Virus record (IMG/VR): IMGVR_UViG_3300035662_000007
Coordinates: 33,552 to 97,551 of that record
Strand: one strand, 5' to 3'
Length of the DNA stretch: 64,000 bases
From: a virus
Below are positions 44,820 through 57,868 of the stretch, one piece after another. The notes beneath the pieces were generated by a model, which did not search any database, was not told the origin of the DNA, and worked only from the letters and a program-made list of their open reading frames with translations. Each line of letters begins with the position of its first letter. The first letter of the stretch is position 1. The translations under genes and the position numbers were made by a program.

Positions 44820-44897
44820 TGGTGGGCCCCCTGGGAGTCGAACCCAGTACCTGCCGATTATGAGTCGGATGCTCTAACCACCGTGAGCTAGAGGCCC
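44820..44897 (-). tRNA. tRNA-Met(CAU), elongator-type
   Basis: Acceptor GGGCCTC pairs with GGGGCCC; loop CTCATAA gives CAU; T-arm TGGG-TTCGACT-CCCA; A73 and an encoded CCA. G1-C72 pairing marks an elongator (or a lysidine-type Ile) rather than an initiator. Confidence 0.9.
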
Positions 44898-44904
44898 GTA
44901 TAGG

Positions 44905-45099
44905 TTACATAAATGCTGCCCACAGCAGCGGCATGAAAAGTAGAACACCAAAAAACACAGCAACAATCCAACCTGGATCTTTGAGTGTAAGTACGGTTTG
45001 TTTGCTGACAGGAACCCCTGCATATTCTACAGTATTTTGTGTGTTAGTATTAGTTAGGGTTTCTGAGCTACGTGGCCACGGCCAACTTTTATTTTGCAC
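44905..45099 (-). CDS. tail-anchored small membrane protein
   Basis: 64 aa from a GTG at 45099 with AAGG about 10 bp upstream (a TTG at 45108 is too close to it). Hydrophilic N terminus and one transmembrane helix at the extreme C terminus ('GWIVAVFFGVLLFMPLLWAAF'). Function unknown. It ends 7 bp before the tRNA-Met 5' end. Confidence 0.55.
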   Translation of the reverse strand: MQNKSWPWPRSSETLTNTNTQNTVEYAGVPVSKQTVLTLKDPGWIVAVFFGVLLFMPLLWAAFM

Positions 45100-45625
45100 T
45101 TTTTGCAATCCTTTTATTTATATCTGCTAGGCTGACCGGAGTATAGTTGTCAAGGCACTCCATGCTAACATTTATGTAACGTGGGTCTGGGTGGCCGTTT
45201 GGTAAGAGCACTCGTTTGTAGTGCAGGTGTCCGTGTAAGTTAGTGCCCCAGCGATCCAAACTCTCTGGATGTATAGGCACATGAGTCATTACTACACCGT
45301 ACCTATGGCATACTCCACGAACATCATCAAAGTATTGTGCATACTGTGCTAGCTTACACTCGTCGTGATTACCACGGATCAATATTTTTATACCGTTAAG
45401 ACGACCTAGAATTTCTAGTCCTGTTGCATTCTTAGTCATGCAAACATCGCCTAGGAAGTATACTTTGTCATCAGGTTTGACCACACTGTTGTGTTGAGCA
45501 ATAATGTGCTCGTGCATATGGTTAATGCCATTAAAACTACGTAGTTGTGTGCCGTCACTTCTAAGAAACTTTAAGATGTTCTCGTGATGAAAGTGATGGT
45601 CACTAGCAAAAAATACATTGCTCAT
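45089..45625 (-). CDS. calcineurin-like metallophosphoesterase
   Basis: 178 aa. Metal-binding motifs 'FASDHHFHH', 'YFLGDV', 'IRGNHDE', 'VVMTHVPIHP' and 'NLHGHLHY' in order. It belongs to the small phosphoesterase group common in phages; substrate unknown. AAGG precedes the ATG and a promoter lies 45 bp upstream. Confidence 0.88.
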   Translation of the reverse strand: MSNVFFASDHHFHHENILKFLRSDGTQLRSFNGINHMHEHIIAQHNSVVKPDDKVYFLGDVCMTKNATGLEILGRLNGIKILIRGNHDECKLAQYAQYFDDVRGVCHRYGVVMTHVPIHPESLDRWGTNLHGHLHYKRVLLPNGHPDPRYINVSMECLDNYTPVSLADINKRIAKSAK

Positions 45626-45645
45626 TTTTAAACCTTAAAAATAAT

Positions 45646-45690
45646 GCCCAGCCTGTGTGACATTTTTATATTATATCACACTGACTGGGC
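45646..45690 (-). terminator. terminator-like inverted repeat overlapping a promoter
   Basis: GCCCAG(TCA)GTGTGA pairs with TCACAC(AGG)CTGGGC around a 15-nt loop that contains TATAAT; ATTATTTTT follows on the minus strand. Read-through RNA from tRNA-Val could terminate here, while RNA from the enclosed promoter would miss the left arm. Confidence 0.6.
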
Positions 45691-45698
45691 CTGTGCAA
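45670..45698 (-). promoter_or_regulatory. leftward promoter embedded in an inverted repeat
   Basis: Minus strand TTGCAC (45698-45693), 17 bp, TATAAT (45675-45670). Drives the phosphoesterase and tRNA-Met unit. Confidence 0.8.
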
Positions 45699-45708
45699 GT
45701 TTAAGTTT

Positions 45709-45783
45709 TGGTAGTACCTGAGGGTTTCGAACCCACGACCCTCTCGGTGTAAACGAGATGCTCTACCACTGAGCTAAGGTACT
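45709..45783 (-). tRNA. tRNA-Val(UAC)
   Basis: Acceptor AGTACCT/AGGTACT, anticodon loop TTTACAC, T-arm with TTCGAA, A73 and encoded CCA. Its first two bases are the AG of the upstream gene's TAG stop. Confidence 0.93.
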
Positions 45784-46351
45784 AGGGATTTGCTAGGTAA
45801 AAAGCTAGGGCAAAGCCTAGTGGAGTCATACTACGCAATTCTTTAGTTCGTTCTGATTTACCACCTAATTGCATTATTGGCGATTTAGGGTCGGGATCAA
45901 CTGGTGATTGAGGCAGGTCACGATTAAATGTGCCCCACAATCCTGTTTTCTTGGTGTAGGCGTCACCAAACCACCACGGCTGAAAGTACCAAGGTGTGCC
46001 TAGTTCTGGCCTAAGTTTTGCTAGTCTACCCACAGGATTTTCAATCACCCACCATTTGGGTTCATGATAGCTTATGATTTCTAGGGTTTTATCTACTAGC
46101 TGTAGGCTCTGCTGGGTACGCCCATCCCTATCTTTTTGCCCCCAGTACTGAGCACCACTACTAGCAAAGTCTGTGCAAGGTGGAGCAGCTAGGATGCCGT
46201 GTATGGGTTGTGGTAAGTCGCCGGGAGTTATATCAAGTATATCAAGACCAAGTTTAACGTCTACTTGATATACGTCATATAATCCGCTGTCGCGGTAGTA
46301 TTTAGGCCAATTGCCACTATAATCGAACAGGGAAAGTATAATTTTTTTCAT
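45782..46351 (-). CDS. DNA cytosine methyltransferase-like protein
   Basis: 189 aa starting at the ATG at 46351. 'ILSLFDYSGNWPKYYRDSGLYDV' is a SAM-binding-like start, 'GILAAPPCTDFASSG' has the Pro-Cys of C5-methyltransferases, 'WWVIENPVGRL' is the ENV-like motif and 'KTGLWGTF' follows. It is shorter than usual and lacks an obvious target-recognition domain. The start A is the last base of tRNA-Gly CCA, and the stop overlaps tRNA-Val. Confidence 0.75.
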   Translation of the reverse strand: MKKIILSLFDYSGNWPKYYRDSGLYDVYQVDVKLGLDILDITPGDLPQPIHGILAAPPCTDFASSGAQYWGQKDRDGRTQQSLQLVDKTLEIISYHEPKWWVIENPVGRLAKLRPELGTPWYFQPWWFGDAYTKKTGLWGTFNRDLPQSPVDPDPKSPIMQLGGKSERTKELRSMTPLGFALAFYLANP

Positions 46352-46428
46352 GGAGCGGGTAGGGAGATTCGAACTCCTCACTTCGAGTTTGGAAGACTGG
46401 CGTGCTAACCGTTAAACACTATACCCGC
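46351..46428 (-). tRNA. tRNA-Gly(UCC)
   Basis: GCGGGTA/TACCCGC acceptor, loop CTTCCAA (UCC), TTCGAAT T-loop, T73 and encoded CCA. One mismatch in the anticodon stem (C28-C42). The final A is also the first base of the methyltransferase ATG. Confidence 0.9.
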
Positions 46429-46591
46429 TAGTATACCTAACTTGTCTATAGAATAGTTTATTAACTACTTGTTCTCGTTGTTTGTCTGTGTATGCTGTCC
46501 AGTCTTGGATTTCTTCCCTAGTTCTCCAGCAGTCTATACATAGCTCTAGTTTAGGGTCTAGCCTACACACTTTAATACAAGGGGTAATCAT
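46412..46591 (-). CDS. DUF1289-like small Cys protein
   Basis: 59 aa. 'TPCIKVCRLDPKLELCIDCWRTREEIQDW' has the CxxxC...CxxC spacing of the DUF1289 family (N-terminal SPCIxVC and CxGCxRT). Function of that family is unknown; metal binding is likely. The reading frame ends with TAA inside the tRNA-Gly D-arm, overlapping the tRNA by 17 nt. It starts 1 bp after the preceding stop. Confidence 0.75.
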   Translation of the reverse strand: MITPCIKVCRLDPKLELCIDCWRTREEIQDWTAYTDKQREQVVNKLFYRQVRYTSGYSV

Positions 46592-46592
46592 A

Positions 46593-46715
46593 TTAGTCTA
46601 AGACTAGCACTTCTACATCCCAGAATCCCCACTCGTCCACAGTCCAATTTAGGAACATTTTAGTTGGTAGGGGAATAAGGTAGCCAGCACTGGGTGGAAT
46701 TTTTGTTTGGTTCAT
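46593..46715 (-). CDS. very small protein between tRNA genes
   Basis: 40 aa from the ATG at 46715: MNQTKIPPSAGYLIPLP followed by an aromatic-acidic end ('WTVDEWGFWDVEVLVLD'). The frame could extend upstream only by starting inside tRNA-Ser. No clear ribosome-binding site; its stop lies directly before the DUF1289-like ATG. Moderately supported. Confidence 0.45.
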   Translation of the reverse strand: MNQTKIPPSAGYLIPLPTKMFLNWTVDEWGFWDVEVLVLD

Positions 46716-46726
46716 TGGCGCAAATC

Positions 46727-46756
46727 TAAAAAGTAGAGGGTGCTGGGCACCCTCTA
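46727..46756 (-). terminator. intrinsic terminator after tRNA-Ser(UGA)
   Basis: TAGAGGGTGC / GCACCCTCTA, 10-bp perfect stem, 3-nt loop, followed by CTTTTTAG on the minus strand, 4 nt beyond the tRNA CCA. Confidence 0.88.
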
Positions 46757-46759
46757 TGT

Positions 46760-46849
46760 TGGCAGAAGCGGTGAGATTCGAACTCACGGACCCCTTACGG
46801 AATCGTCGGTTTTCAAGACCGGTGCCTTAAACCCCTCGACCACGCTTCT
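46760..46849 (-). tRNA. tRNA-Ser(UGA)
   Basis: AGAAGCG/CGCTTCT acceptor, loop CTTGAAA, long variable arm, G73 and CCA. Its first two bases lie in the hsp20 stop codon. Confidence 0.93.
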
Positions 46850-47288
46850 AAAGATCAAGCTGTTGTTGTCCACCAATAGGAATACGCTTAGGCTTCAGGG
46901 TTTCTTGCAAGCCTAGGTAAACCTTTAACAAGCCGTCTTTAAGCTCGGCATGTAGGACTTCATACTGATTGTCTAGGAAAAAGCTACGAGTAAAGCCTCT
47001 GTAGGCAATACCTTGATGAATCCAAGCTGTATAATCTTTATCTTCTTCCTGCTCAGACTTTTGAGCAGTAATTACAAGTTCGCCTTTTGATACTTCCAGA
47101 CTAATCTCTGATTCCTTAAAACCAGCAACAGCTAGTTCTAGGAGATACTTGTGATCTTCTGCTTTGCGAACATTGTATGGTGGATAATTAACATTTGCTT
47201 TAGCAATCATTTGCGTATGCAATTTGTTAATGCGATCTTGGGCTTCATCAAAGCCTAGAAAGTATTTATTAATATCTTTTAGTGTCAT
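46848..47288 (-). CDS. small heat-shock protein Hsp20
   Basis: 146 aa with an alpha-crystallin domain: 'YPPYNVRKAEDHKYLLELAVAGFKESEISLEVSKGELVITAQK' and 'GIAYRGFTRSFFL', close to IbpA/B in layout and length; a C-terminal 'KRIPIGG' supplies the I-x-I/V-type tail. ATP-independent holdase. GAGGAG precedes the ATG. It is placed directly after the tmRNA, so the two stress-related functions are neighbours. Confidence 0.9.
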   Translation of the reverse strand: MTLKDINKYFLGFDEAQDRINKLHTQMIAKANVNYPPYNVRKAEDHKYLLELAVAGFKESEISLEVSKGELVITAQKSEQEEDKDYTAWIHQGIAYRGFTRSFFLDNQYEVLHAELKDGLLKVYLGLQETLKPKRIPIGGQQQLDL

Positions 47289-47320
47289 CTCATTCTCCTC
47301 GGTTGAGCAAGAATTGTTAA

Positions 47321-47342
47321 TAAAAATGCCAAATGGCCATTT
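47321..47342 (-). terminator. intrinsic terminator after the tmRNA
   Basis: AATGGCC / GGCATT with one bulged G and a short ATTT loop, followed by TTTTTATT on the minus strand. Confidence 0.7.
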
Positions 47343-47344
47343 AA

Positions 47345-47655
47345 GTCCAGGTTTTCTGTTACGAGGATAACCTGGAACCCTAAGCCGAGTTTAGGCGGCT
47401 AATGCGAACGTTTCATCGTTTGCGTTTAGTTTGTTTGCTTCTCTAGCCGGGTAGTCCCAGCCCTACGGCTTCTGCATTGCCGAGTTGTCCATCTTCCTAC
47501 TCTGCACCCTGTCGAAACCATGACTAGCCCATCAGAAACATTCTCACGGTTTATCTTTCCGTTCCCAAATACATGGACAAAAATGTTTCTGGTGGACCAG
47601 GCGGGAGTCGAACCCGCGTCCAAAGCACCTTTGGGTTAACTTCATACAACTATAT
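47345..47655 (-). ncRNA. ssrA: circularly permuted (two-piece) tmRNA
   Basis: Order on the minus strand: acceptor piece first (T-arm GCGGG-TTCGACT-CCCGC, acceptor strand CTGGTCC, A, CCA ending at 47590), a 59-nt intervening segment (47531-47589), then the coding piece starting GGGCTAG at 47530, which pairs with CTGGTCC and continues TCATGGTTTCGACAGGG. AGAAACATT and AATGTTTCT within the intervening segment form a stem that brings the two ends together. The tag frame (47423-47391) encodes ANDETFALAA and a TAA stop. The exact 5' end of the acceptor piece and 3' end of the coding piece are estimated. It rescues stalled ribosomes and tags the nascent peptides. Confidence 0.93.
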
Positions 47656-47829
47656 CTTCTTTTGCGTAACACTACAACTACCAACTAGGGTTTTACCTTT
47701 AGTTTCGTAGTCTAGTTTAAGTTTGGCTAGTGCTTGTTCGCACTCAGCTCTGCTAGAGTATGCACCTCTAGTTCCGTGCTCGCCGCCAGTGCCTAACACA
47801 GAAAATAGTATAATCCATACCCAAGCCAT
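47650..47829 (-). CDS. small protein with a signal peptide or anchor
   Basis: 59 aa from the ATG at 47829 (AGGA upstream). Hydrophobic residues 2-15 ('AWVWIILFSVLGT'), then a soluble helix with two Cys. It ends just before the tmRNA acceptor piece, so the transcript continues into the tmRNA. Confidence 0.55.
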   Translation of the reverse strand: MAWVWIILFSVLGTGGEHGTRGAYSSRAECEQALAKLKLDYETKGKTLVGSCSVTQKKI

Positions 47830-47834
47830 AGTAT

Positions 47835-48224
47835 TTATCCTATATCTTGTGCCCAAGAATGCTGATTCCAGAACTCACTAACTTTTGCTTGGTCAAGACC
47901 ACAAAACTCAGCAAATTTAGTTAGCAAGTTGTCATCATGTTCAGCATCAAAAATGCTATTATGTATAGTCAGGTATCCTGCCATCTGTGCAGGAGCATAG
48001 GCTTCTGGCCCGAACTCAAACACATTGTAGAGAACATACCTGTAAGTGCCCTTGTCCTCAATATCACCTTTGTAGATGCGACGACACACTGCACAGAATG
48101 CATCAAGCTGTTGCTCTTTGGTTAAACTATTCCAGTACTCCTCACTAGCCTGCTCAATATTTAGCATAGCTTTATTCCAAGCTTCGCCAATTTCACTTAG
48201 TGAATCTTTAAGTTCTTCGTTCAT
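47835..48224 (-). CDS. conserved phage protein of unknown function
   Basis: 129 aa. 'EEYWNSLTKEQQLDAFCAVCRRIYKGDIEDKGTYRYVLYNVFEFGPEAY' is a recognisable pattern among small phage early proteins; function unknown. It is followed 5 bp later by the next gene. Confidence 0.6.
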   Translation of the reverse strand: MNEELKDSLSEIGEAWNKAMLNIEQASEEYWNSLTKEQQLDAFCAVCRRIYKGDIEDKGTYRYVLYNVFEFGPEAYAPAQMAGYLTIHNSIFDAEHDDNLLTKFAEFCGLDQAKVSEFWNQHSWAQDIG

Positions 48225-48236
48225 GATTATACTTAG

Positions 48237-48311
<75 letters not shown>

Positions 48312-48315
48312 GGTG

Positions 48316-48391
48316 TGGAGTAGATGACAGGACTCGAACCTGCATATACTGGATTTGCAATCCAGTCCCTAGCCTTTCGGGTCACATCTAC
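48316..48391 (-). tRNA. tRNA-Cys(GCA)
   Basis: GTAGATG/CATCTAC acceptor, CTGGA-TTGCAAA-TCCAG anticodon arm, T73 and CCA. The TAG at bases 2-4 is the stop of the upstream gene. Four bases separate it from tRNA-Thr. Confidence 0.92.
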
Positions 48392-48609
48392 ATAATTCGG
48401 GGATCTAGCTTACGTTGGGTAACCAGCTGCTCAAATGTTGCAAAGGTGCGCTCAAACTTAAGGTGATAAAGAGTCTTAAGTCCAAGTAAGAGATTATGCA
48501 CATCGTCACTAAGTTCAAGACTATCAGTTTCCATAATAGTCTGCAGATCATCGGTAATATGCCAGCAATCTAGGATTTCTTGTTCAAGATCAAAGCGGTC
48601 TTTAGTCAT
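48388..48609 (-). CDS. conserved small phage protein
   Basis: 73 aa, acidic and helical: 'RFDLEQEILDCWHITDDLQTI' and 'LLGLKTLYHLKFERTFATFEQL'. The pattern occurs widely in phages without assigned function. The stop TAG is inside tRNA-Cys (4-nt overlap). It starts just after the preceding stop (TAAAATG). Confidence 0.65.
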   Translation of the reverse strand: MTKDRFDLEQEILDCWHITDDLQTIMETDSLELSDDVHNLLLGLKTLYHLKFERTFATFEQLVTQRKLDPRIM

Positions 48610-48610
48610 T

Positions 48611-49081
48611 TTAGTTTGAAAGAATAAATTTTAGTCGGTCTGCTGCGTAACTTGCTGCAAATGCTTGAGGTTTAACTTGTGCTTCTATATTACAGGTGCC
48701 ACGAATATATCCAATAGCTTGAGAAATTACTTGTGAACTAGCATAGCGATCATCTGGATTAATATCTAGATGCACTTCTACGTGTCGGTCTTGGAGTACA
48801 TCGCTTAGCTCATTAAATAGCTGTGCGACCTTATACACTTCACCCATGAGTCGTAGCGCAGGCTTATCTCGGCGTTGATCATAGTCTCGCTCACGAGTAA
48901 TATGACCAAATATCTTACAGCCGTGTTTGCCTTCAATGTGAACTACAACCGCTAGGTAGTATTCAGCCATCCAGCAATCACCACCACTTACACGCTCACT
49001 ATCTGCGCCCAAGTATATTCGAGTATCTGCGCTTTGAGCACTAATAAACTGTTTAATTTCGTCTAGGTCGAATTGTTTCAT
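48611..49081 (-). CDS. RNase H-like fold protein (DUF458/YkuK-like)
   Basis: 156 aa from the ATG at 49081; the longer frame would start inside tRNA-Gln. 'RIYLGADSERV', 'YYLAVVVHIEGKHGCKIFGHIT' and 'VEVHLDINPDDRYASSQVISQAIGYIRG' follow the pattern of the DUF458 RNase H-like family. Catalytic activity is not certain. No strong ribosome-binding site; it lies 6 bp after tRNA-Gln. Confidence 0.65.
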   Translation of the reverse strand: MKQFDLDEIKQFISAQSADTRIYLGADSERVSGGDCWMAEYYLAVVVHIEGKHGCKIFGHITRERDYDQRRDKPALRLMGEVYKVAQLFNELSDVLQDRHVEVHLDINPDDRYASSQVISQAIGYIRGTCNIEAQVKPQAFAASYAADRLKFILSN

Positions 49082-49087
49082 GATTTG

Positions 49088-49161
49088 TGGCAGGGGTACT
49101 TGGAGTCGAACCAAGAATATGGGAATCAAAATCCTGTGTGATACCGTTTCACTATACCCCA
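49088..49161 (-). tRNA. tRNA-Gln(UUG), with weak stems
   Basis: TGGGGTA against TACCCCT gives a U1-U72 mismatch; loop TTTTGAT reads UUG; the outer two pairs of the anticodon stem are mismatched; T-arm CTTGG-TTCGACT-CCAAG is perfect; G73 and CCA. Probably functional but degenerate. Confidence 0.8.
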
Positions 49162-49163
49162 CT

Positions 49164-49238
49164 TGGCTCCACAGGCTGGGATCGAACCAACGACCAATTG
49201 ATTAACAGTCAACTGCTCTACCGCTGAGCTACTGTGGA
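49164..49238 (-). tRNA. tRNA-Asn(GUU)
   Basis: TCCACAG/CTGTGGA acceptor, GTTGA-CTGTTAA-TCAAT anticodon arm, G73 and CCA. U8-A9-G10 is the stop codon of the upstream gene. Two bases separate it from tRNA-Gln. Confidence 0.93.
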
Positions 49239-49426
49239 ATATAATTAAGCTGTGCTAGAATGTACCGGTATACTGTTCTACGAGGTTCATCCCCTGACTC
49301 CAACATTTGGAGTGGAGTTTGCATACCAAATGCACGATTAGGTGATTCGTACCACTTGTCTACTAGCTCTTGTGAACCTAGCATACTCTTTAGGCACATA
49401 TTAAGTGTAGCGTATGGATACTTCAT
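49229..49426 (-). CDS. small protein resembling the Xre/MbcA/ParS C-terminal domain
   Basis: 65 aa. 'KWYESPNRAFGMQTPLQMLESGDEPRRTVYRYI' follows the (W)-x-PN-x-F/LG-x-TP-x2-L/M-x-SG pattern of the DUF2384 antitoxin/toxin-binding domain. There is no HTH part and no RES toxin beside it. It may be a stand-alone anti-toxin mimic, but the similarity is short. The stop is at bases 8-10 of tRNA-Asn. Confidence 0.55.
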   Translation of the reverse strand: MKYPYATLNMCLKSMLGSQELVDKWYESPNRAFGMQTPLQMLESGDEPRRTVYRYILAQLNYIPQ

Positions 49427-49443
49427 TCAGATTCCTAAGTGTA

Positions 49444-49529
49444 TGGTGCCCCGAGCCGGACTCGAACCGGCACGCATTTTCAGCGAGGGATTTTAAGTCC
49501 CTTGTGTCTACCTATTTCACCATCAGGGC
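49444..49529 (-). tRNA. tRNA-Leu(UAA)
   Basis: GCCCTGA/TCGGGGC acceptor, GGGA-CTTAAAA-TCCC anticodon arm, long variable arm, TTCGAGT T-loop, A73 and CCA. Confidence 0.92.
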
Positions 49530-49534
49530 TTAGA

Positions 49535-49750
49535 TCAGACTAGTACAGTTCCCCTGTCGTAGAGGATATAGATATTTTGGAACTGCTGGTGCATTAGGTC
49601 AAGGTCGCGGATCGAGCAGTAGGGTCCGCCTTCAATTTGAAAGTCTTTGCCACCCTGCCAGTCGCGGAGCGCTTGCTCACGAGTCTTATACTGGCGACCA
49701 TAGGCAGGCAGCAAGAACATGGGACTAGTAACTTGGTTCAACGCTTCCAT
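49535..49750 (-). CDS. conserved small phage protein
   Basis: 71 aa. 'FLLPAYGRQYKTREQALRDWQGGKDFQIEGGPYCSIRDL' is a well-recognised block of small phage proteins of unknown function. It is 5 bp before the tRNA-Leu 5' end and is the first gene after the promoter at 49780. Confidence 0.65.
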   Translation of the reverse strand: MEALNQVTSPMFLLPAYGRQYKTREQALRDWQGGKDFQIEGGPYCSIRDLDLMHQQFQNIYILYDRGTVLV

Positions 49751-49779
49751 TTAGATTCCTAAATTGTCACAGAAATAAT

Positions 49780-49808
49780 ATTATAGCAAATCTGCGATTT
49801 AGGGTCAA
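49780..49808 (-). promoter_or_regulatory. leftward promoter for the central tRNA/tmRNA unit
   Basis: Minus strand TTGACC (49808-49803), 17 bp ending TTGC, TATAAT (49785-49780), then ATTATT. The next leftward promoter is at 45670, so this one probably transcribes tRNA-Leu(UAA) through the tmRNA. Confidence 0.85.
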
Positions 49809-49822
49809 GACAAAAATTTTCT

Positions 49823-49896
49823 TGGCCTCCCCATACGGACTCGAACCGCAACCAACAGTTTTGGAGACTGTGATGCTGCCATTACACCATGAGGAG
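49823..49896 (-). tRNA. tRNA-Trp(CCA)
   Basis: CTCCTCA/TGGGGAG acceptor, ACAGT-CTCCAAA-ACTGT anticodon arm, G73 and CCA. Confidence 0.92.
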
Positions 49897-49901
49897 GTTA
49901 G

Positions 49902-49975
49902 TGGTTGCGGGAGAGGGAATCGAACCCCCATCTGGAGCTTATGAGACTCCTGAATTACCTTTACTCTATCCCGCG
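49902..49975 (-). tRNA. initiator-like tRNA-Met(CAU)
   Basis: C1 faces A72 (CGCGGGA with TCCCGCA), and the D-stem has an A11-U24 pair: two initiator features. Loop CTCATAA reads CAU; A73 and CCA are encoded. The three G-C pairs of bacterial initiators at the base of the anticodon loop are not kept (A-U, G-C, U-G here). Confidence 0.8.
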
Positions 49976-49983
49976 AAAATTAG

Positions 49984-50142
49984 TTATTGTGAGCGATTGA
50001 ACCAGTTACTAGTAGTAAGCCAGCGCTTTTCTAGATCTTCTAGTTCTTTGTGGTCTTTAGGGCCGTATTCTTTGACATAATCCTCGAATGTGTACGGACG
50101 AACAAATTCCAGGACGCGCTGCCACATATCAGCGACTTTCAT
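49984..50142 (-). CDS. small helical protein
   Basis: 52 aa: MKVADMWQRVLEFVRPYTF..., charged and helical, ending 'RWLTTSNWFNRSQ'. It overlaps the upstream gene by 14 bp and ends 8 bp before the initiator-like tRNA. Family not recognised, but composition and tight packing support it. Confidence 0.6.
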   Translation of the reverse strand: MKVADMWQRVLEFVRPYTFEDYVKEYGPKDHKELEDLEKRWLTTSNWFNRSQ

Positions 50143-50368
50143 TATTTACAAAGCCGTATAGCTCTTTGGCTTTCTCTAGAATATCTTTAAAATCATAAAA
50201 CTTGGGCATATGCGTAGCCCAATCTTCGGGCTGAACCTTGCCAAGCTCTACCATCTGGTGAAATGTTTGCTCTGCAAATTGTTTATTAGCTTCAAACTGT
50301 TGTTGAAGATAGCCCTGAGCAAGTTGTAGCAGCTCAGTGCGAATTTCGTACGGATTTTTAGTTGTCAT
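50129..50368 (-). CDS. conserved small phage protein
   Basis: 79 aa. 'NPYEIRTELLQLAQGYLQQQFEANKQFAEQ' and 'MPKFYDFKDILEKAKELYGFV' are a pattern shared by small early proteins of many phages; function unknown. AAGGAAG precedes the ATG, which follows the terminator at 50400. Confidence 0.65.
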   Translation of the reverse strand: MTTKNPYEIRTELLQLAQGYLQQQFEANKQFAEQTFHQMVELGKVQPEDWATHMPKFYDFKDILEKAKELYGFVNNESR

Positions 50369-50399
50369 GATACTTCCTTGTGTGTTGTGTGTGTAAAAG

Positions 50400-50423
50400 A
50401 AAAAAGCCGGTTACCTGTCCGGC
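50400..50423 (-). terminator. intrinsic terminator after the tRNA-Pro unit
   Basis: GCCGG / CCGGC stem with an 8-nt loop followed by TTTTTTC on the minus strand. Confidence 0.8.
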
Positions 50424-50511
50424 ATAACCCGTATCGTCTGTTATGGATGACGCTAGCACTGCCGCGGCTAGTAACGGCTATAGCGGTTTAGGTTCTATAG
50501 CTAACCAGGAT
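50424..50511 (-). ncRNA. candidate small structured RNA after tRNA-Pro
   Basis: 88 nt without an open frame hold three consecutive hairpins on the minus strand: GCTATAG/CTATAGC (50501-50477), CTAGC/GCTAG (50471-50453) and ATAAC/GTTAT (50444-50424), then the terminator. It could be a processed RNA or a folded tRNA trailer. Confidence 0.4.
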
Positions 50512-50590
50512 TGGTCTCGGGGGTGGGATTCGAACTCACGATCTCCTGCTCCCAAAGCAGGCGCTTTAAGCCGGACTAAGCTACACCGAG
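50512..50590 (-). tRNA. tRNA-Pro(UGG)
   Basis: CTCGGTG/CCCCGAG acceptor (one mismatch), CCTGC-TTTGGGA-GCAGG anticodon arm, A73 and CCA. Confidence 0.92.
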
Positions 50591-50592
50591 TA

Positions 50593-50669
50593 TGGCACAC
50601 CTAAGGGGATTCGAACCCCTGATCTACTCCGTGAAAGGGAGTTGTCCTAGGCCGCTAGACGATAGGTGC
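50593..50669 (-). tRNA. tRNA-Glu(UUC)
   Basis: GCACCTA/TAGGTGT acceptor, anticodon region CCCTTTCACGG (UUC), T-arm GGGG-TTCGAAT-CCCC, G73 and CCA. Two bases before tRNA-Pro. Confidence 0.92.
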
Positions 50670-50828
50670 TTATTTTTTCGGCGGTTTAGGGTAAGGTTTC
50701 TTGCCCTTGTCACCTTCACGAGCATGAATAGCTGCTTCAGCAGCTTTACATGACTCTAGTGTGTCAAACTGGCAGTTGCCACGTTGACCATATTTGTACT
50801 TACCGTTTGCGCATTTATAGCAAGGCAT
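50670..50828 (-). CDS. small Cys-rich protein
   Basis: 52 aa. MPCYKCANGKYKYGQRGNC has a CxxC and further Cys, then a helix ('LESCKAAEAAIHA') and a Lys/Pro-rich tail. Small proteins of this form occur in phages; a zinc-binding fold is likely. Its TAA is directly followed by tRNA-Glu base 1. Confidence 0.65.
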   Translation of the reverse strand: MPCYKCANGKYKYGQRGNCQFDTLESCKAAEAAIHAREGDKGKKPYPKPPKK

Positions 50829-50830
50829 GG

Positions 50831-51136
50831 TTAATCCAGTGCAGGAATTTTTGTTAGAGTTTTTGTTTTATGCCCTACAATAGTATCTGTAGGCTTGTAC
50901 TCGCCATCTTGTTCCCTGTACACTCTGATTAAAGCACCTGGGTCATCTGGCGTTCCTGTAATTTTAAAACTACTACCGGGGATTTGTTCCTCGCCATTAG
51001 TAATTACTTTGGTAACTTTGCCACGAGCAGTACCGCCGCTTGAATTCCAACTAACGCTATCGCCCCTTTTAACATTTTTTGCTTTAGTAATTATAGCATC
51101 TAAGGCTGCTATAAGCGTTTCTGTAGAGTAGTTCAT
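50831..51136 (-). CDS. DUF2945-like small protein
   Basis: 101 aa from the ATG at 51136 with GGAG 6 bp upstream; a longer frame would start inside tRNA-Ser. 'KRGDSVSWNSSGGTARGKVTKV' matches the start of DUF2945 (Tudor-like) proteins, here with an N-terminal helical extension. Function unknown. It ends 2 bp before the next start. Confidence 0.65.
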   Translation of the reverse strand: MNYSTETLIAALDAIITKAKNVKRGDSVSWNSSGGTARGKVTKVITNGEEQIPGSSFKITGTPDDPGALIRVYREQDGEYKPTDTIVGHKTKTLTKIPALD

Positions 51137-51147
51137 AGTATTCTCCG

Positions 51148-51240
51148 TGGCAGTGAGTGTGGGATTCGAACCCACGGACCCGGTTGACCCGAATCGACGG
51201 TTTAGCAAACCGCTGCCTTAAGCCACTCAGCCAACTCACT
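51148..51240 (-). tRNA. tRNA-Ser(GCU)
   Basis: AGTGAGT/ACTCACT acceptor, GCGGT-TTGCTAA-ACCGT anticodon arm, long variable arm, G73 and CCA. Confidence 0.92.
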
Positions 51241-51246
51241 AGGTTA

Positions 51247-51347
51247 TGGTAGAAGGGGTGGGAATCGAACCCACATTAACTGCCTTATCTGGACAGTGCT
51301 TACGAGTTTATAAGGCTCGCCCTAAGGCCAATATTAGCAACCCTTCC
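51247..51347 (-). tRNA. class II tRNA with anticodon UAU
   Basis: GGAAGGG/CCCTTCT acceptor (G1-U72), D-arm with GG, CGAGC-CTTATAA-ACTCG anticodon arm (C31-A39 mismatch), a variable arm of about 28 nt with an ACTG/CAGT stem, T-arm GTGGG-TTCGATT-CCCAC, A73 and CCA. The anticodon should read AUA (Ile), but long variable arms belong to Leu, Ser and Tyr tRNAs. Identity is therefore uncertain. Confidence 0.75.
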
Positions 51348-51353
51348 ATTAAC

Positions 51354-51470
51354 TTATGCATCTAGTTTGCGATTTAGTTGACCACGAACTTGTTTATGGG
51401 TTTTGGTATGTGAACCCGCCCTACGTTTGCGGGCTAGTGCCACATACGGATTACGAGGTTTTAGTTTCAT
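51354..51470 (-). CDS. very small basic protein
   Basis: 38 aa: MKLKPRNPYVALARKRRAG followed by a His/Lys/Arg-rich stretch; pI very high. Similar 'KPRNPxVA' mini-proteins occur in phages of betaproteobacteria; function unknown, nucleic-acid binding is plausible. It ends 6 bp before the UAU tRNA. Confidence 0.6.
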   Translation of the reverse strand: MKLKPRNPYVALARKRRAGSHTKTHKQVRGQLNRKLDA

Positions 51471-51526
51471 GATATACCTAAATTAAATATAAATTACTTT
51501 GCAGTTTTAATCAACGCCAAAGTAAT

Positions 51527-51555
51527 ATTATAGCAAACTAGATTGCATAGTTCAA
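51527..51555 (-). promoter_or_regulatory. leftward promoter
   Basis: Minus strand TTGAAC (51555-51550), 17 bp ending TTGC, TATAAT (51532-51527), then ATTA. Drives the 51470-to-50512 unit, which ends at the terminator at 50400. Confidence 0.85.
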
Positions 51556-51565
51556 TATTAAAATT

Positions 51566-51781
51566 TTAACTGTCTTGTTCTACATAACGATAGTGTTTAG
51601 TTATCTCTGTAAAACATTCTTGAAATTGATCGCGGGCTTGTAGGAACTGTGTATAGGCTTGAGCACCGTTAGTTGCTAGAGCAAGACTAGCTGCACCCAA
51701 GTCATCTACAGCTTGCATTATGGTTTTGTAATCTTGTTCTTGTTTTGGGCACCAGTATTTATGAATTTTTAAAGCTGACAT
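51566..51781 (-). CDS. unknown small helical protein
   Basis: 71 aa, helical ('DYKTIMQAVDDLGAASLALATNGAQAYTQFLQARDQF'). Last gene of the fibre-like leftward unit; it ends just upstream of the promoter at 51527. Not recognised. Confidence 0.5.
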   Translation of the reverse strand: MSALKIHKYWCPKQEQDYKTIMQAVDDLGAASLALATNGAQAYTQFLQARDQFQECFTEITKHYRYVEQDS

Positions 51782-51786
51782 TTTTA

Positions 51787-51858
51787 CTACTTTTTATTTA
51801 ACTGTAATTTGAGAGCAGTCACACCCGCATGTAATCTACTATAGTGCAGCCGCCTCAT
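51787..51858 (-). CDS. possible 23-aa leader peptide
   Basis: ATG at 51858 opens a 23-codon frame (MRRLHYSRLHAGVTALKLQL...). The ATG lies in the loop of a 9-bp hairpin (CTACTATAG/CTATAGTAG), and an AGGAGG lies further upstream than normal. Could be real or chance. Confidence 0.3.
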   Translation of the reverse strand: MRRLHYSRLHAGVTALKLQLNKK

Positions 51859-51887
51859 CTATAGTAGTGTTATCGATACCGTCCTCC

Positions 51888-52292
51888 TTATATTACGTTC
51901 CAATTTGTTCCGCGGAACACTAGTGTAATTGCTCCATCTGTGGCGGCTAATATTGTGTAGCTTGCTGCATTTTCAATGGTTTCTGCACCATTGGGCGTAA
52001 CGGTAATATCGCTGGTTTGTCCAGCTTCGCTTTTGATAACTACTGTTCTACCGTCTACACCGGCAGTTAGGTTAATAGCAATCGCAGCTCCAGTGCCTAC
52101 TACGCCTAAGTAGTAATTTGGAGTAGTACCTGCACTGTCTAGGGTATAGGGACTTGCTGCGTTGTTGACTAGCTGTGTATTAACAGTTTCATTTCCTACA
52201 ACAGAAATAACGCCGTTAGTAACTGTAATATTTGATCCAACCTTTACTACACCGTAGTTGGTGGTTGAGGTTAATGGTGAATTATATGCCAT
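51888..52292 (-). CDS. small fibre-like virion protein
   Basis: 134 aa. N-terminal 'SPLTSTTNYGVVKVGSNITVTNGVIS' is a fibre-type repeat; the C-terminal half ends 'DGAITLVFRGTNWNVI', a compact beta domain repeated in the next two fibre genes upstream. No membrane or enzyme motifs. Part of a four-gene fibre cassette on the strand opposite the main tail genes. Confidence 0.65.
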   Translation of the reverse strand: MAYNSPLTSTTNYGVVKVGSNITVTNGVISVVGNETVNTQLVNNAASPYTLDSAGTTPNYYLGVVGTGAAIAINLTAGVDGRTVVIKSEAGQTSDITVTPNGAETIENAASYTILAATDGAITLVFRGTNWNVI

Positions 52293-52330
52293 GGATTTTC
52301 TCCTGTTATTGTTATTGTTGGCACTGAAAA

Positions 52331-52636
52331 TTACCCTGCTATACTCTTCCAGTTAGTGCCGTCGTAAGTAAGTAGTACGCGGCTATATGGAGTATTTAAT
52401 ATTGCAAAACTTGCACCATCAATGGTTTTTCCACTGGGTGCAGTAATAGTTATAGGATTTATTTTTGAATTACCTGAAAAATCTTTGATATAATAAGTTT
52501 TACCAGTATTACTTCCAGATAGGTTTGGTAGTACCAGTGATGACGCAGTTGTTACATTACTAAATATAACCTCATCGTCTTTATCAATTGTGGCGGGTGT
52601 TGTTGTAATAGTTCTAGTATCATAAGTTATACTCAT
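52331..52636 (-). CDS. small fibre-tip-like protein
   Basis: 101 aa beta domain: 'TYYIKDFSGNSKINPITITAPSGKTIDGA' and 'LLTYDGTNWKSI' match the C-terminal domain of the 53195 collagen-like protein, so it is a free-standing copy of that module. Probably virion decoration or fibre tip. Confidence 0.65.
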   Translation of the reverse strand: MSITYDTRTITTTPATIDKDDEVIFSNVTTASSLVLPNLSGSNTGKTYYIKDFSGNSKINPITITAPSGKTIDGASFAILNTPYSRVLLTYDGTNWKSIAG

Positions 52637-52637
52637 A

Positions 52638-53198
52638 TTATCCTATCCTTGTTAGTGTAACCTTGACTGCATAACCTGTTGGTCTAACAGGATTTACTTG
52701 AGCAGCTAGTGGGCTAAAACCAGTAGTTATATCTGGACTACTCCAACAGGTTTGTATGTTATCTCCTGCTGCTAAACTCAGTGTATAATTACCGCTTAAG
52801 AATACTATAGATAATACGTTTGTTAGTTGTAACTCTTGTGCTGAGCCTGTTATATCTACACCGTTTTTTCGTAACCATATACTTAGTGTGGCTGTGCCAC
52901 CGCTGGTTTTTGTGGTTATAAGTGTAAATATTTGAGTATATATACCTGCATTTGCAACAGTGATATTGTTACCGCCGCCGCCTATGCTTACTCCATTAGC
53001 TGGGCCTAATGTATCAAATGTAATAACATTAACCTGATTAGCAACTGGATTAGTTTGTGGGGTACTACTATTAACAAATCCATATTCGCCAAAACTGCTG
53101 CTAGTTGCAGTAACAATACCATTTGTTACACTTAATCCACTTCCTACTTTGATTACGCCATAGTCTGTGGTACTTGCTAGTGCTTGATTATAGCTCAT
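52638..53198 (-). CDS. fibre protein with a C1q/TNF-like head
   Basis: 186 aa from the ATG at 53198 (a frame at 53210 adds four residues). N terminus 'YNQALASTTDYGVIKVGSGLSVTNGI' repeats the fibre motif of the 51888 gene; residues about 50-186 form a jelly-roll-like domain with 'AGIYTQIFTLITTK' and 'LSIWLRKNGVDI', as in C1q/TNF-type trimeric heads. It overlaps the upstream gene by 4 bp. Confidence 0.65.
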   Translation of the reverse strand: MSYNQALASTTDYGVIKVGSGLSVTNGIVTATSSSFGEYGFVNSSTPQTNPVANQVNVITFDTLGPANGVSIGGGGNNITVANAGIYTQIFTLITTKTSGGTATLSIWLRKNGVDITGSAQELQLTNVLSIVFLSGNYTLSLAAGDNIQTCWSSPDITTGFSPLAAQVNPVRPTGYAVKVTLTRIG

Positions 53199-53686
53199 AC
53201 TACATTCCATTCTATGCCATTATAGACCAAACCAATACTGCCCCAGTCTGTGTCTAAAACATAAGTTAATTCGCCATCAATACTACTGCCTGTAGTAGTC
53301 ACAGTAATTGGATTTGTATTAGCATCCCCCGCACTATCTTTGATAATAAACACTTTGCCAAGGGTTCCACTAGGAAGTGTAACCGTTACTGCACCATTAT
53401 AAATTACGCCTAAAAAGTACTCATCTGTGGTAGCACTATAGGTTGGCGTATCTATGAGTTGCACAGGCACATCTGCTAGTGAGCCTGGTGGTCCTTGTGG
53501 TCCTTCCGGACCCTGAGGACCAGGTGGTCCTGGTGGACCGGGTGGTCCGGGCGTGCCTATGCCATAGTTGATAAATAAGTCATTATCTTCCATGATTGGA
53601 GGCGGCAGGGGCGGAGCAGGAACAAGAGCAAACCCTTGCTTTTGCCACATAAATGGTGGCAATAAGTGTTGTTTTTGTCTTTGCAC
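53195..53686 (-). CDS. collagen-like fibre protein
   Basis: 163 aa, GTG start with AGGAG upstream. Residues about 44-68 are eight Gly-X-Y triplets (GPPGPPGPPGPQGPEGPQG), a collagen-like triple-helix segment, followed by the 'VFIIKDSAGDANTNPITVT' beta module. A trimeric fibre with adhesive tip is likely. Confidence 0.8.
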   Translation of the reverse strand: MQRQKQHLLPPFMWQKQGFALVPAPPLPPPIMEDNDLFINYGIGTPGPPGPPGPPGPQGPEGPQGPPGSLADVPVQLIDTPTYSATTDEYFLGVIYNGAVTVTLPSGTLGKVFIIKDSAGDANTNPITVTTTGSSIDGELTYVLDTDWGSIGLVYNGIEWNVV

Positions 53687-53699
53687 AATAATCTCCTAT

Positions 53700-53733
53700 A
53701 AAAAGCGCCCCCAGGTCTTTTGAACGTGGGGGG
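53700..53733 (-). terminator. intrinsic terminator
   Basis: CCCCCA / TGGGGG stem with a CG extension and a GTTCAAAAGACC-type loop, followed by CTTTTTATAG on the minus strand, between the 53752 and 53195 genes. Confidence 0.75.
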
Positions 53734-53751
53734 CCAACCGTTAATTAGAGA

Positions 53752-54513
53752 TTATCTAATATTTGTATTTGTGTTTGCTGGATTAGCGGTTTGTGTTCCA
53801 CTACCAACATTGATTGCTGAGTTAGTATTCTGAATGTTTTGAGCAAGGGCCCAGAGAGCATTGTAAAGCTGACCGTATTGTTGTTGCTGTTGAGCTTGCT
53901 GTTGCATCTGGTTAACAGTGGTTGTTGTATTGACCTCTACACCACGTGTACGCTCTGCGGTATCAAAACGAGATTGCAGTGCAATAATGTTTGCATTAGC
54001 ATCGCTGAGTTGACGGTTTAGAGTGGCTTCGTATTGACTAGTGATTAAGGCACGAGTCTTGTCACCATCATTGTTAATGTCTTGTGCCAACTGGTAACGG
54101 TTTTCCATTACTTGTTGTTGTACGCCATTAAGTTGCTGTGAAAGCAGCATAGCGGTCGCATTAACTGCTTCTTTGGTACCGTCAACACGAGTTGCCAATG
54201 AGCCTGTTTGTGCATTGAGCTGGTTTGTAAAAGCAATGGTTTGATTGGCTTGTGACGCTTCCATGGCTGCTGTACTAACAGCTACTGCCTTGTCTACTTG
54301 ACCAATGCTCTGCATTAGGCTCATGTTGGCTTGAACTTGCTCAGGCGGACTACGTAGAGTTGCTCCAGCAGCTGCGCCATCTCCTCCAAAGAGATTACCA
54401 TTGTTGCGTAGGAGCGAGCCTAGGATAAGACCGCCAATAAGACCGCCGCCTCCGAAAAGACCGTCGCCGCCGCCACTCATCATCATGCCTGCAGGTGTGA
54501 TTGATTCTGCCAT
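53752..54513 (-). CDS. Gly-rich/coiled-coil protein, probable virion component
   Basis: 253 aa. Gly-rich hydrophobic N terminus ('GGGDGLFGGGGLIGGLILGSLL'), a long helical coiled coil (about 55-215) and a Gln/Asn-rich tail. This layout is found in abundant phage structural or ejection-type proteins. A strong terminator follows. It sits at the head of the collagen-like cassette. Confidence 0.6.
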   Translation of the reverse strand: MAESITPAGMMMSGGGDGLFGGGGLIGGLILGSLLRNNGNLFGGDGAAAGATLRSPPEQVQANMSLMQSIGQVDKAVAVSTAAMEASQANQTIAFTNQLNAQTGSLATRVDGTKEAVNATAMLLSQQLNGVQQQVMENRYQLAQDINNDGDKTRALITSQYEATLNRQLSDANANIIALQSRFDTAERTRGVEVNTTTTVNQMQQQAQQQQQYGQLYNALWALAQNIQNTNSAINVGSGTQTANPANTNTNIR

Positions 54514-54546
54514 TTTGTTCTCCGTTTTTTATTATTGTTTGTGGAG

Positions 54547-54583
54547 TTAAACGGCTACTAGGCCGGCAAGCCTAGCTGCCGAC
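54547..54583 (-). other. stem-loop upstream of the Gly-rich protein gene
   Basis: CTAGGC...GCCTAG inside GGC...GCC arms forms a stable hairpin in the leader of the 53752 gene. There is no T run, so it looks like a regulatory or stabilising stem rather than a terminator. Confidence 0.4.
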
Positions 54584-54588
54584 CATAA

Positions 54589-54792
54589 TTAACTAACTAT
54601 GGGTTTCTCTGTGATTACTTCGTACTCATCTAGGGTAAGGCACTCGTCGTGTTTACTTAACCACATCAAGTTTTCCATCATATAGTTTATATGATCTTGC
54701 GTTACCTTAGGGTCTTTGATATGTTCTAAGAGCTTTTTCATGAGTTTAGGGCTAACCTCAATCTCTACGAACTTGTAATATTTATCGCCCAT
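54589..54792 (-). CDS. small helical protein, tandem paralogue A
   Basis: 67 aa. 'EVSPKLMKKLLEHIKD' and 'NLMWLSKHDECLTLDEYEVI' align with the upstream neighbour (54792 gene), with matching length and spacing. Function unknown; likely a tandem duplication. Confidence 0.55.
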   Translation of the reverse strand: MGDKYYKFVEIEVSPKLMKKLLEHIKDPKVTQDHINYMMENLMWLSKHDECLTLDEYEVITEKPIVS

Positions 54793-54989
54793 TAAAAACC
54801 CCCTCTATCAACTATTGTGTCATAGTGTTTCATAGTGAGGAGAGTATTTGTTTGCATTAGCCTGATTAGGTGTTCTGCTACAAAGTGCAAATCTTTATCG
54901 TGTTTAGCATCTTCGCGCGCAAATTCCATCAATCTAAGCATTAGCGGAACATCGACTGAAATAATGTCTAATCCGTTATATGCCATCAT
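54792..54989 (-). CDS. small helical protein, tandem paralogue B
   Basis: About 65 aa; several ATGs are clustered at 54995-54986, and 54989 has GGAG at the best distance. 'DVPLMLRLMEFARED' and 'HLIRLMQTNTLLTMKHYDTI' match paralogue A. It shares 1 bp with the following gene. Function unknown. Confidence 0.55.
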   Translation of the reverse strand: MMAYNGLDIISVDVPLMLRLMEFAREDAKHDKDLHFVAEHLIRLMQTNTLLTMKHYDTIVDRGGF

Positions 54990-55053
54990 ACACATCTCCG
55001 TGTGTTTAAATTCCCCTTACGGGGGCTGTTTGGGTTGGTTCCCAAATCTTTTA

Positions 55054-55128
55054 TGGTGGACCGCCGGAGGATCGAACTCCGACCTATGCCGTGCAAAGGC
55101 ACCGTGCTCCCATTATCACTAGCAGCCC
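55054..55128 (-). tRNA. tRNA-Ala(UGC)
   Basis: GGGCTGC/GCGGTCC acceptor, GTGCC-TTTGCAC-GGCAT anticodon arm, T-arm CGGAG-TTCGATC-CTCCG, A73 and CCA. A TTTGGG/CCCAAA hairpin and a CCCC/GGGG hairpin follow (55000-55045). Confidence 0.93.
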
Positions 55129-55446
55129 TTAATAATAATATACGTGTGGTTTACGTCCTACTGCGGGCGGATCTACTAGCTCTAGGTCTGTGGTCTTGAG
55201 CACTGCGTGCTCCCATACACGGCCACGACGACGCTGTGGACGATTCATAGTAATACGAGTCCACCAGCTAGGTGTTGTGCTATACCAGCGAAAATGACAG
55301 TAGTTTCTACGCTTTTTAGTTTTCTTGCCCGCAACTTGTATGTAACGAAAACCAAAGCTACTAGTATCTACACGAATAGCATCGTATAAGTAGTGATCTT
55401 CTGGATACGCTACAGTGTGCGGTTTATCTTTTAGAGTACGACTCAT
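55129..55446 (-). CDS. conserved small basic protein
   Basis: 105 aa from the ATG at 55446, with GGAG just after the terminator T run. 'MSRTLKDKPH' start, then basic 'KKTKKRRNYCHFRW' and 'NRPQRRRGRVWEHAVLK' stretches. The pattern recalls a family of short Arg-rich phage proteins, unknown role. Its TAA is directly followed by tRNA-Ala. Confidence 0.6.
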   Translation of the reverse strand: MSRTLKDKPHTVAYPEDHYLYDAIRVDTSSFGFRYIQVAGKKTKKRRNYCHFRWYSTTPSWWTRITMNRPQRRRGRVWEHAVLKTTDLELVDPPAVGRKPHVYYY

Positions 55447-55456
55447 TATTATCTCC

Positions 55457-55498
55457 AAAAAACCATAGTTCAAATCACGAGTATGAGTTGAACTATGG
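55457..55498 (-). terminator. strong intrinsic terminator of the ornate RNA
   Basis: CCATAGTTCAA / TTGAACTATGG, 11-bp perfect stem, followed by TTTTTT on the minus strand. It marks the 3' end of the structured noncoding transcript. Confidence 0.92.
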
Positions 55499-55955
55499 CC
55501 CCACTCCCTAAAGTGGCTTCATAGTGTCTTGTTACTATTGGGCGACGGCCCGCAGGTCTAGAATGTCCAGTTACGTAGTCCACCATCACTAGTAACTTTT
55601 ATCGCCCTGTTGCGCGGTATAGTCTAGGGATACGACTATGTAAGCGTGGCGGGAACTATTATATGCAGGTGCTCATTCCTGCTTGCTCTAGACTTCACTG
55701 TTCACGTTGTACAGTCGAATATCTTTACGGGGTACGACCCCAGCCTAGTCACCAGCCTAGAGTTTATAGGTTCAGCGTGAGCAGCGCAATTACGGATGTT
55801 GACTAGAAATAAGTTTTCCCAGTTCAGGCTTTAGAGTGCCTTATCGGGCTAGTCAACAACCATATTGAAACACACTGTGGTCTATACATACTTTCCTTGA
55901 GAGGTATGTGGTGTACCAGCCCTGATCTTTTTAGGGATTTTAATGTGCTTCAATA

Positions 55956-56042
55956 TGGTGGATGCGGATGGATTCGAACCACCAGCGTTTCTAGTGTCAC
56001 GAGTTTACAGCCCGCTGCCGTCAACCATTTGGCTACGCATCC
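55956..56042 (-). tRNA. tRNA-Tyr(GUA)
   Basis: GGATGCG/CGCATCC perfect acceptor, GCGGG-CTGTAAA-CTCGT anticodon arm, long variable arm, A73 and CCA. The CCA begins the 5' arm of the downstream bracketing stem. Confidence 0.92.
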
Positions 56043-56225
56043 ATAGTAAAGTATTTTGCTTACTGCCTGCTCGCGCATGAGTTAATCTTCCTGCCATATG
56101 ATCCCGCTAAGGATCGGCTACGATTAACTTCAGCCCGCTTTAGGGATATACCGGCCGGGTACCCTTATTTCTCTGGGCTGCAATGTCCTGTTTATTTCAC
56201 CTAGGACGAACAAAATACTTAACTA

Positions 56226-56308
56226 TGGTGCCCTGGGACGGACTCGAACCGTCACGCTCGCGCACTGGCTTCTAAGACCAGCGTGTCTACCAATTCCACC
56301 ACCTGGGC
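56226..56308 (-). tRNA. tRNA-Leu(UAG)
   Basis: GCCCAGG/CCAGGGC acceptor with one A-A mismatch, CTGGT-CTTAGAA-GCCAG anticodon arm, variable arm TGCGCGAGCGT, A73 and CCA. The CCA starts the 18-bp stem in the ornate RNA. Confidence 0.92.
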
Positions 56309-56401
56309 ATGGTAACGATCTAAGGTTTTAATCGTTGTGGCTCATGCACCCCAAGCTGACGCTTGTTGAGCTTTTGCGGTTTGTGCCGCCCCATATATAA
56401 T

Positions 56402-56430
56402 ATTATACAGTATTAGTTAGCGTGAATCAA
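56402..56430 (-). promoter_or_regulatory. leftward promoter P1 of the ornate RNA
   Basis: Minus strand TTGATT (56430-56425), 17 bp, TATAAT (56407-56402), then ATTATAT. Confidence 0.85.
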
Positions 56431-56492
56431 GACAAGAAATTAAACGGTAATAGTTGTATTGCTATTTCTTTCTTAATTCACACTATACACAT

Positions 56493-56521
56493 ATTATATC
56501 ACGTTTACTGGTCTAGTGCAA
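56493..56521 (-). promoter_or_regulatory. leftward promoter P2 upstream of the ornate RNA
   Basis: Minus strand TTGCAC (56521-56516), 17 bp, TATAAT (56498-56493), preceded by AAATTTAGAC. The 60 bp between P2 and P1 contain an AAGAAAT/ATTTCTT inverted repeat. Confidence 0.82.
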
Positions 56522-56523
56522 GT

Positions 56524-57525: not shown

Positions 57526-57713
57526 TATCGTGTGTTTTTATAGTTACGGACTGCTTCGGCGTCCAAGCTAGCATAGACTCTGAATTTGTCTTTGCCGACT
57601 TGGTCGTAGAGGTCGCTAGCCAGTTTGTACTGCTTTTCGGTGGTTTCAAGTCCCAGTGGCTCATATCTGCTCGCAAAACATTCCAACAAAAATTCACGGG
57701 TATAGCCTGCCAT
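57525..57713 (-). CDS. small protein upstream of uvsE
   Basis: 62 aa from the ATG at 57713, with GGAG 8 bp upstream and the promoter at 57738 just before it; a longer upstream frame would start before the promoter. 'MAGYTREFLLECFASRYEPLG' start, helical. Not recognised. Confidence 0.6.
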   Translation of the reverse strand: MAGYTREFLLECFASRYEPLGLETTEKQYKLASDLYDQVGKDKFRVYASLDAEAVRNYKNTR

Positions 57714-57865: not shown

Positions 57866-57868
57866 AGC

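Follow-up and report, generated by a model that had tools for sequence, protein, structure and literature searches.

In animal mitochondria, protein genes are punctuated by tRNAs whose excision yields functional mRNAs, and incomplete stop codons are completed by polyadenylation. The locus described here resembles that arrangement in that a protein gene lies without a spacer between two tRNA genes of the same strand, so that tRNA excision would set the ends of the mRNA. It differs in that the ATG and TAG of the phage gene are complete in the DNA, where excision would remove part of them, and in that processing in the phage case would be of the bacterial type. A second point of comparison is provided by the tRNA clusters and arrays of tailed phages, in which many tRNAs on one strand are likewise separated by small ORFs; unlike in the usual phage cluster, a base of the start codon is common here to the tRNA CCA end, which is rare (none of 458 control tRNAs). 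The economy of bases also recalls the ATGA-type overlapping stop and start codons of translationally coupled genes, and in tRNA-less relatives of this locus a DUF1289 frame does meet the methyltransferase ATG. Unlike in ATGA-type overlaps, however, the partner is a structural RNA, and the use of shared bases in one product may deprive the other of them. The gene product itself shares with C5-cytosine DNA methyltransferases such as M.HaeIII and DNMT3 the fold, the PPC and ENP(V) motifs and the SAM-binding N-terminal strand and loop, but it has only 189 residues, and no target-recognition domain separates its motif VIII-like part from its C-terminal part.

An overlap between a tRNA and a coding sequence is easily taken for an annotation error; here it is conserved and recurrent. 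The question matters for the expression of phage tRNA clusters: should tRNAs and proteins share transcripts, each molecule may have to become one or the other, or else cutting and repair are needed. As a small locus that can be cloned, the case lends itself to direct tests.

A methyltransferase-like gene between two tRNA genes

The window, the whole stretch of 64,000 nucleotides analysed here, is part of an uncultivated virus record of 97,551 bases (IMGVR_UViG_3300035662_000007). All contigs used in this work are uncultivated, and ORF calls near tRNAs are mechanical. A megablast search with 24 kb of the window against annotated phages returned no near relative. Using ARAGORN, we located 18 minus-strand tRNAs, together with a tmRNA of the same strand, within about 14 kb (44820-58872). 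The features needed below are as follows.

45709-45783, minus strand: tRNA-Val(UAC); ARAGORN, Rfam 67.4 bits
45782-46351, minus strand: C5-cytosine-methyltransferase-like gene, 189 aa; ATG at 46351-46349, TAG at 45784-45782
46351-46428, minus strand: tRNA-Gly(UCC) with encoded CCA, last A at 46351; ARAGORN, Rfam RF00005 45.7 bits
46412-46591, minus strand: DUF1289 gene, 59 aa, TAA stop 17 nt into tRNA-Gly; PF06945 56.6 bits
46760-46849, minus strand: tRNA-Ser(UGA), first two bases AG completing the TAG of the Hsp20 gene; ARAGORN, Rfam
46848-47288, minus strand: Hsp20 gene, PF00011; TAG shares AG with tRNA-Ser (overlap -2)
47300-47682, minus strand (region 47300-47710): permuted tmRNA, tag ANDETFALAA; ARAGORN, Rfam RF04321 114.5 bits and RF01850 111 bits
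48388-48609, minus strand: 73-aa ORF; TAG among bases 1-4 of tRNA-Cys (48316-48391), overlap -4
49229-49426, minus strand: 65-aa ORF; TAG is U8-A9-G10 of tRNA-Asn (49164-49238), overlap -10

The preliminary description had placed the ATG of the gene on the final A of the tRNA-Gly CCA and had its TAG run two bases into tRNA-Val. Sequence and ARAGORN call together bear out the former to the base, A46351 being common to the CCA end and the ATG (a one-nucleotide overlap). The latter is equally exact: A45783 and G45782 are bases 1 and 2 of tRNA-Val and the AG of the TAG (a two-nucleotide overlap). Both tRNAs exceed the Rfam cut-off. Folding of the junction RNA gave no signal beyond that of shuffled sequences (z -0.05).

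The assignment of the gene as a methyltransferase homologue was confirmed by profile and by fold. The 189-aa protein matches PF00145 with 27.1 bits (cut-off 22) and PHROG 757, 'DNA methyltransferase', with an E-value of 7e-39. An AlphaFold2 model built with 29 homologues reached a pLDDT of 91.2 and a pTM of 0.88, and the best solved structures matched by Foldseek were the C5-cytosine methyltransferases DNMT3A/B, M.HaeIII and M.HhaI, with TM scores on the query of about 0.5-0.63 (DNMT3B, E 2.4e-7; M.HaeIII 1dct, 0.60). Across the 29 homologues, A55 A56 P57 P58 C59 (motif IV PPC, with the catalytic Cys) and E104 N105 P106 (motif VI ENP/ENV) are invariant. No target-recognition domain is present, only about 20 residues separating the KKTGLW motif from the conserved GGKSE segment. 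With a confidently predicted fold, the protein is thus best described as C5-cytosine-methyltransferase-like, a putative DNA methyltransferase without a target-recognition domain. Comparison with relatives, in which synonymous codon changes far outnumber nonsynonymous ones (62 and 5 against L007; 61 and 25 against L009), indicates that the gene is real and under strong purifying selection.

In the model, residues 3-8 form strand beta-1, and the residue encoded by the ATG is also the one at which the homologues begin; together these fix ATG 46351 as the start, as previously proposed. The frame is also open upstream to a GTG at 46381 within tRNA-Gly, from which a protein of 199 residues would be made. 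We regard this start as extremely improbable and rejected it as not conserved: L008 and L009 have no GTG there, the homologues begin at the ATG position instead, and the added residues would be encoded by tRNA T-arm sequence. Downstream of Met1, in-frame ATG, GTG or TTG codons occur at GTG102, GTG107, TTG138 and ATG160, with further start codons at 172 and 175. The statement that the next in-frame start would cost the SAM-binding segment accordingly holds, as initiation at codon 102 would lose both motif I and the catalytic PPC.

Conservation and exchange at the junctions

We compared the locus with nine close relatives from IMG/VR (L001-L009, 87-100% identity, from separate metagenome samples). 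The one-base CCA/ATG overlap is present in eight of the nine; in the exception, L008, the sequence reads CCA-AAGT-ATG, with a 4-nt spacer between the tRNA-Gly CCA and the ATG. The stop overlap with tRNA-Val is kept in all nine, L008 included. The double overlap, retained in eight of nine relatives from separate samples, exceeds chance.

Were tRNA-Gly or tRNA-Val a decaying or non-expressed copy, the overlap would have no consequence for processing. The score of tRNA-Gly (45.7 bits) does lie below that of most tRNAs in the cluster, but each of the nine close relatives has both tRNAs with the CCA intact, and comparison of L009 with the window revealed compensatory changes in the acceptor and T-stem of tRNA-Gly; this tRNA is therefore also under constraint, and decay is very unlikely.

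Many relatives at 75-77% identity have no tRNA upstream of the methyltransferase gene, and in several of these the DUF1289 frame itself extends to the ATG. L028 and L030 carry a class II tRNA-like element 5-6 bases 5' of the gene, which matches the Rfam tRNA-Sec model with 42.2 and 36.9 bits, under its gathering score, and whose anticodon loop reads by eye as Ser UGA. The start overlap is dispensable, as seen from the spacer in L008 and from the gene standing without a tRNA in relatives at 75-77% identity. At 70% identity, L032 shows a one-base CCA/ATG overlap with a tRNA-Cys, apparently an independent gain. On the L032/L087 contig, an unrelated 181-aa ORF fills the slot from tRNA-Gly to tRNA-Val and ends on the T|AG of tRNA-Val; the slot is exchangeable, with cassettes replaced between fixed tRNAs. 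Different phages have unrelated small genes in this tRNA-Gly(UCC)-tRNA-Val(UAC) slot, as seen on the reverse strand of L087 (12031-12576) and in L090.

Other junctions in the cluster are of similar kind. That between the Hsp20 gene and tRNA-Ser is of the same type as the methyltransferase/tRNA-Val junction and is kept in L082-L086, and the junction of the 65-aa ORF with tRNA-Asn is kept in L082-L085. In L083-L085 the 73-aa ORF ends in TGA with its -4 overlap unchanged. The overlap of DUF1289 with tRNA-Gly varies among relatives (-17, -24, or none, at +4).

Start and stop overlaps among viral tRNAs

We then considered how unusual each of the two overlaps is. Among ORFs of the window that end beside a tRNA, 5/11 stop inside that tRNA, and in the viral loci examined the same was true of 46/135 single-ORF spacers between same-strand tRNAs, a set from partly pattern-selected loci with mechanical ORF calling. 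It is therefore common in viral tRNA clusters for a stop to overlap the downstream tRNA. The 46 stops include 16 at -10 and 8 at -2; a peak at tRNA positions 8-10 coincides with the conserved U8-A9-G10, which reads TAG.

Start overlap on the CCA is rare. In viral loci obtained with a control pattern, ORFs that begin on the CCA and span 60 codons or more were found at 0/458 CCA tRNAs, and the same count gave 4/131 in relatives of the window. Where a viral tRNA is followed by TG, 20/60 frames are open for at least 60 codons, against 60/676 in the same register at other tRNAs (Fisher p 7e-7), and this excess argues that many such starts are real. The proportion of true tRNAs with open ORFs was 9/14 for starts at -1, 1/7 at 0, 7/9 at +1 and 6/15 at +3. 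A universal preference for -1 was rejected, as open ORFs are also frequent at +1 and +3, and, with the A supplied by the CCA, a start at -1 arises about three times more easily. A limited test, a search of the open-access literature, found no description of a CCA/AUG overlap.

The window case pointed to what is a better natural example, an unrelated viral contig:

G012, IMGVR_UViG_3300017963_000316: 54.7 kb, about 34 tRNAs

In G012 the one-base CCA/ATG overlap occurs at eight tRNAs, two of them ascertained via the search pattern (L430 = G012:32500-52499, reverse strand). Fusions with ORFs of 60 codons or more involve 6/24 tRNAs, compared with 0/458 in controls (p 8e-9). One fused ORF is a PHROG 547 phosphoesterase, and several others have, by eye, a common C-x2-C-x(3-4)-F-x-C motif. 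When junction conservation was sought for one G012 ORF, a single distant locus was found besides itself. G012 also encodes a tRNA nucleotidyltransferase (L494:9553-10968, plus strand; PF01743 123 bits, PHROG 2244 E 2e-70). PF01743 is found in 4/22 other contigs, chosen from start-overlap loci with L009 and L032 added and G012 kept separate, against 1/28 control tRNA-rich contigs; this enrichment is only suggestive, and an exclusive link of the fusions with phage CCA-adding enzymes was not upheld. It is conceivable, though we think it unlikely, that certain phages use CCA/AUG fusions as a functional way to start genes, in which a cut within the CCA would yield a leaderless mRNA and a CCA-adding enzyme, from the host or the phage, would repair the tRNA. 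G012 would then be the clearest case and the window methyltransferase its single-gene version.

Processing of the tRNAs and expression of the gene

RNase P cuts tRNA precursors immediately before base 1 (PMC4681348); tRNA-Val maturation would therefore leave an mRNA ending at the U of the UAG. At the 3' end, E. coli cuts a few nucleotides downstream of the CCA and then trims, whereas in S. coelicolor most encoded CCA ends are cut between the two Cs, and a partial CCA is repairable by nucleotidyltransferases (PMC4681348). Most tRNase Z enzymes are inhibited by CCA (PMC3161902). The preliminary description had held that excision of either tRNA destroys an end of the mRNA. For tRNA-Val this stands, as a base-1 cut would leave a stop-less message. 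For tRNA-Gly it is not established, because the start would be lost only if the 3' cut lies beyond the CCA, as in E. coli.

No Shine-Dalgarno sequence precedes the methyltransferase ATG (median of window genes, -4.2 kcal/mol), and the same holds for tRNA-fused relatives except L032, where a weak one is present. The upstream sequence that a ribosome would need falls within the T-arm and acceptor stem of tRNA-Gly. A promoter of the gene's own, giving a leaderless mRNA at the ATG, was rejected, as there is no promoter-like match at the right place.

The double overlap is probably a case of extreme compaction of a co-oriented phage tRNA/ORF array, the methyltransferase being translated from the unprocessed transcript. 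The tRNA ends would supply part of its start and stop codons, and we infer that the array is co-transcribed and that the protein is most likely made from nascent, unprocessed polycistronic RNA without a Shine-Dalgarno sequence, before processing, with tRNAs derived from the same transcripts or from other transcript copies. An RNase P cut at tRNA-Val would leave ribosomes on a stop-less mRNA in need of rescue, for which the phage's own nearby tmRNA might serve, and 3' maturation of tRNA-Gly beyond the CCA would remove the start codon. Such per-transcript exclusivity would be a by-product of compaction, with no dedicated switch. Compaction is favoured because the same junction type recurs nearby, on unrelated genes, and because the slot is exchangeable (L032/L087) and the overlap dispensable (L008). 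Against it, the rarity of the start overlap (0/458) means that tolerance alone may not explain retention in 8/9 relatives. Moreover, a terminator-like hairpin with 10 bp and a T-rich tail lies directly 3' of tRNA-Ser (46756-46734, minus strand) and could split the cluster into transcription units; a promoter search between this hairpin and DUF1289 gave no convincing match.

Second in our ranking is a 3' cut within the CCA or after the discriminator, leaving a near-leaderless (C)(C)AUG mRNA and a tRNA repaired by a CCA-adding enzyme. If the cut fell inside the CCA as in S. coelicolor, one transcript could give both products, a leaderless mRNA and a repairable tRNA. The lack of a Shine-Dalgarno sequence in tRNA-fused relatives, bar the weak one in L032, would suit this reading, as would the eight fused tRNAs and the nucleotidyltransferase of G012. 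It is improbable for the window, however, given the inhibition of most tRNase Z enzymes by CCA, the E. coli cut downstream of the CCA and the lack of a PF01743 gene in the window's phage record, although a host enzyme would suffice. Comparison of viral starts at -1, 0, +1 and +3 gave no clear surplus at -1 once the supplied A is allowed for, and the PF01743 enrichment (4/22 and G012 against 1/28) is of the suggestive kind noted above.

The lock proposed earlier, a competition of translation with tRNA processing for one transcript, ranks third; it is doubtful and, as a dedicated switch that would couple the amount of methyltransferase to the need for tRNA or the capacity to process it, not supported. 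In its favour, the double overlap is retained in 8/9 close relatives, translation of DUF1289, which ends inside tRNA-Gly, could open the acceptor stem and so free the ATG, and the RNase P cut would give a stop-less mRNA in a phage that has its own tmRNA. Nevertheless, L008 lacks the start overlap while its protein is still under selection, more distant relatives lack the tRNA or have a gap of 5-6 nt, and the DUF1289 overlap is variable in length. Similar stop overlaps occur on unrelated genes, stops inside tRNAs being common in the window and in viral spacers alike. A special device for competition is thus not established, and compaction remains our preferred explanation.

Exact matches to the tag peptide ANDETFALAA come mainly from Paraburkholderia/Caballeronia/Pandoraea and from Colwelliaceae-like genomes, which together with the beta_tmRNA model match suggests a Burkholderiales-type host. 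Permuted tmRNAs of the betaproteobacterial type were also seen in G006 (L085), L086, L088 and L028. Elsewhere in the window, a 98-nt Rfam tRNA match missed by ARAGORN lies at 51250-51347 (minus strand, 39.9 bits), and an ORF at 26170-27186 (minus strand) resembles by eye a PstS-type phosphate-binding protein, possibly a host-derived metabolic gene.
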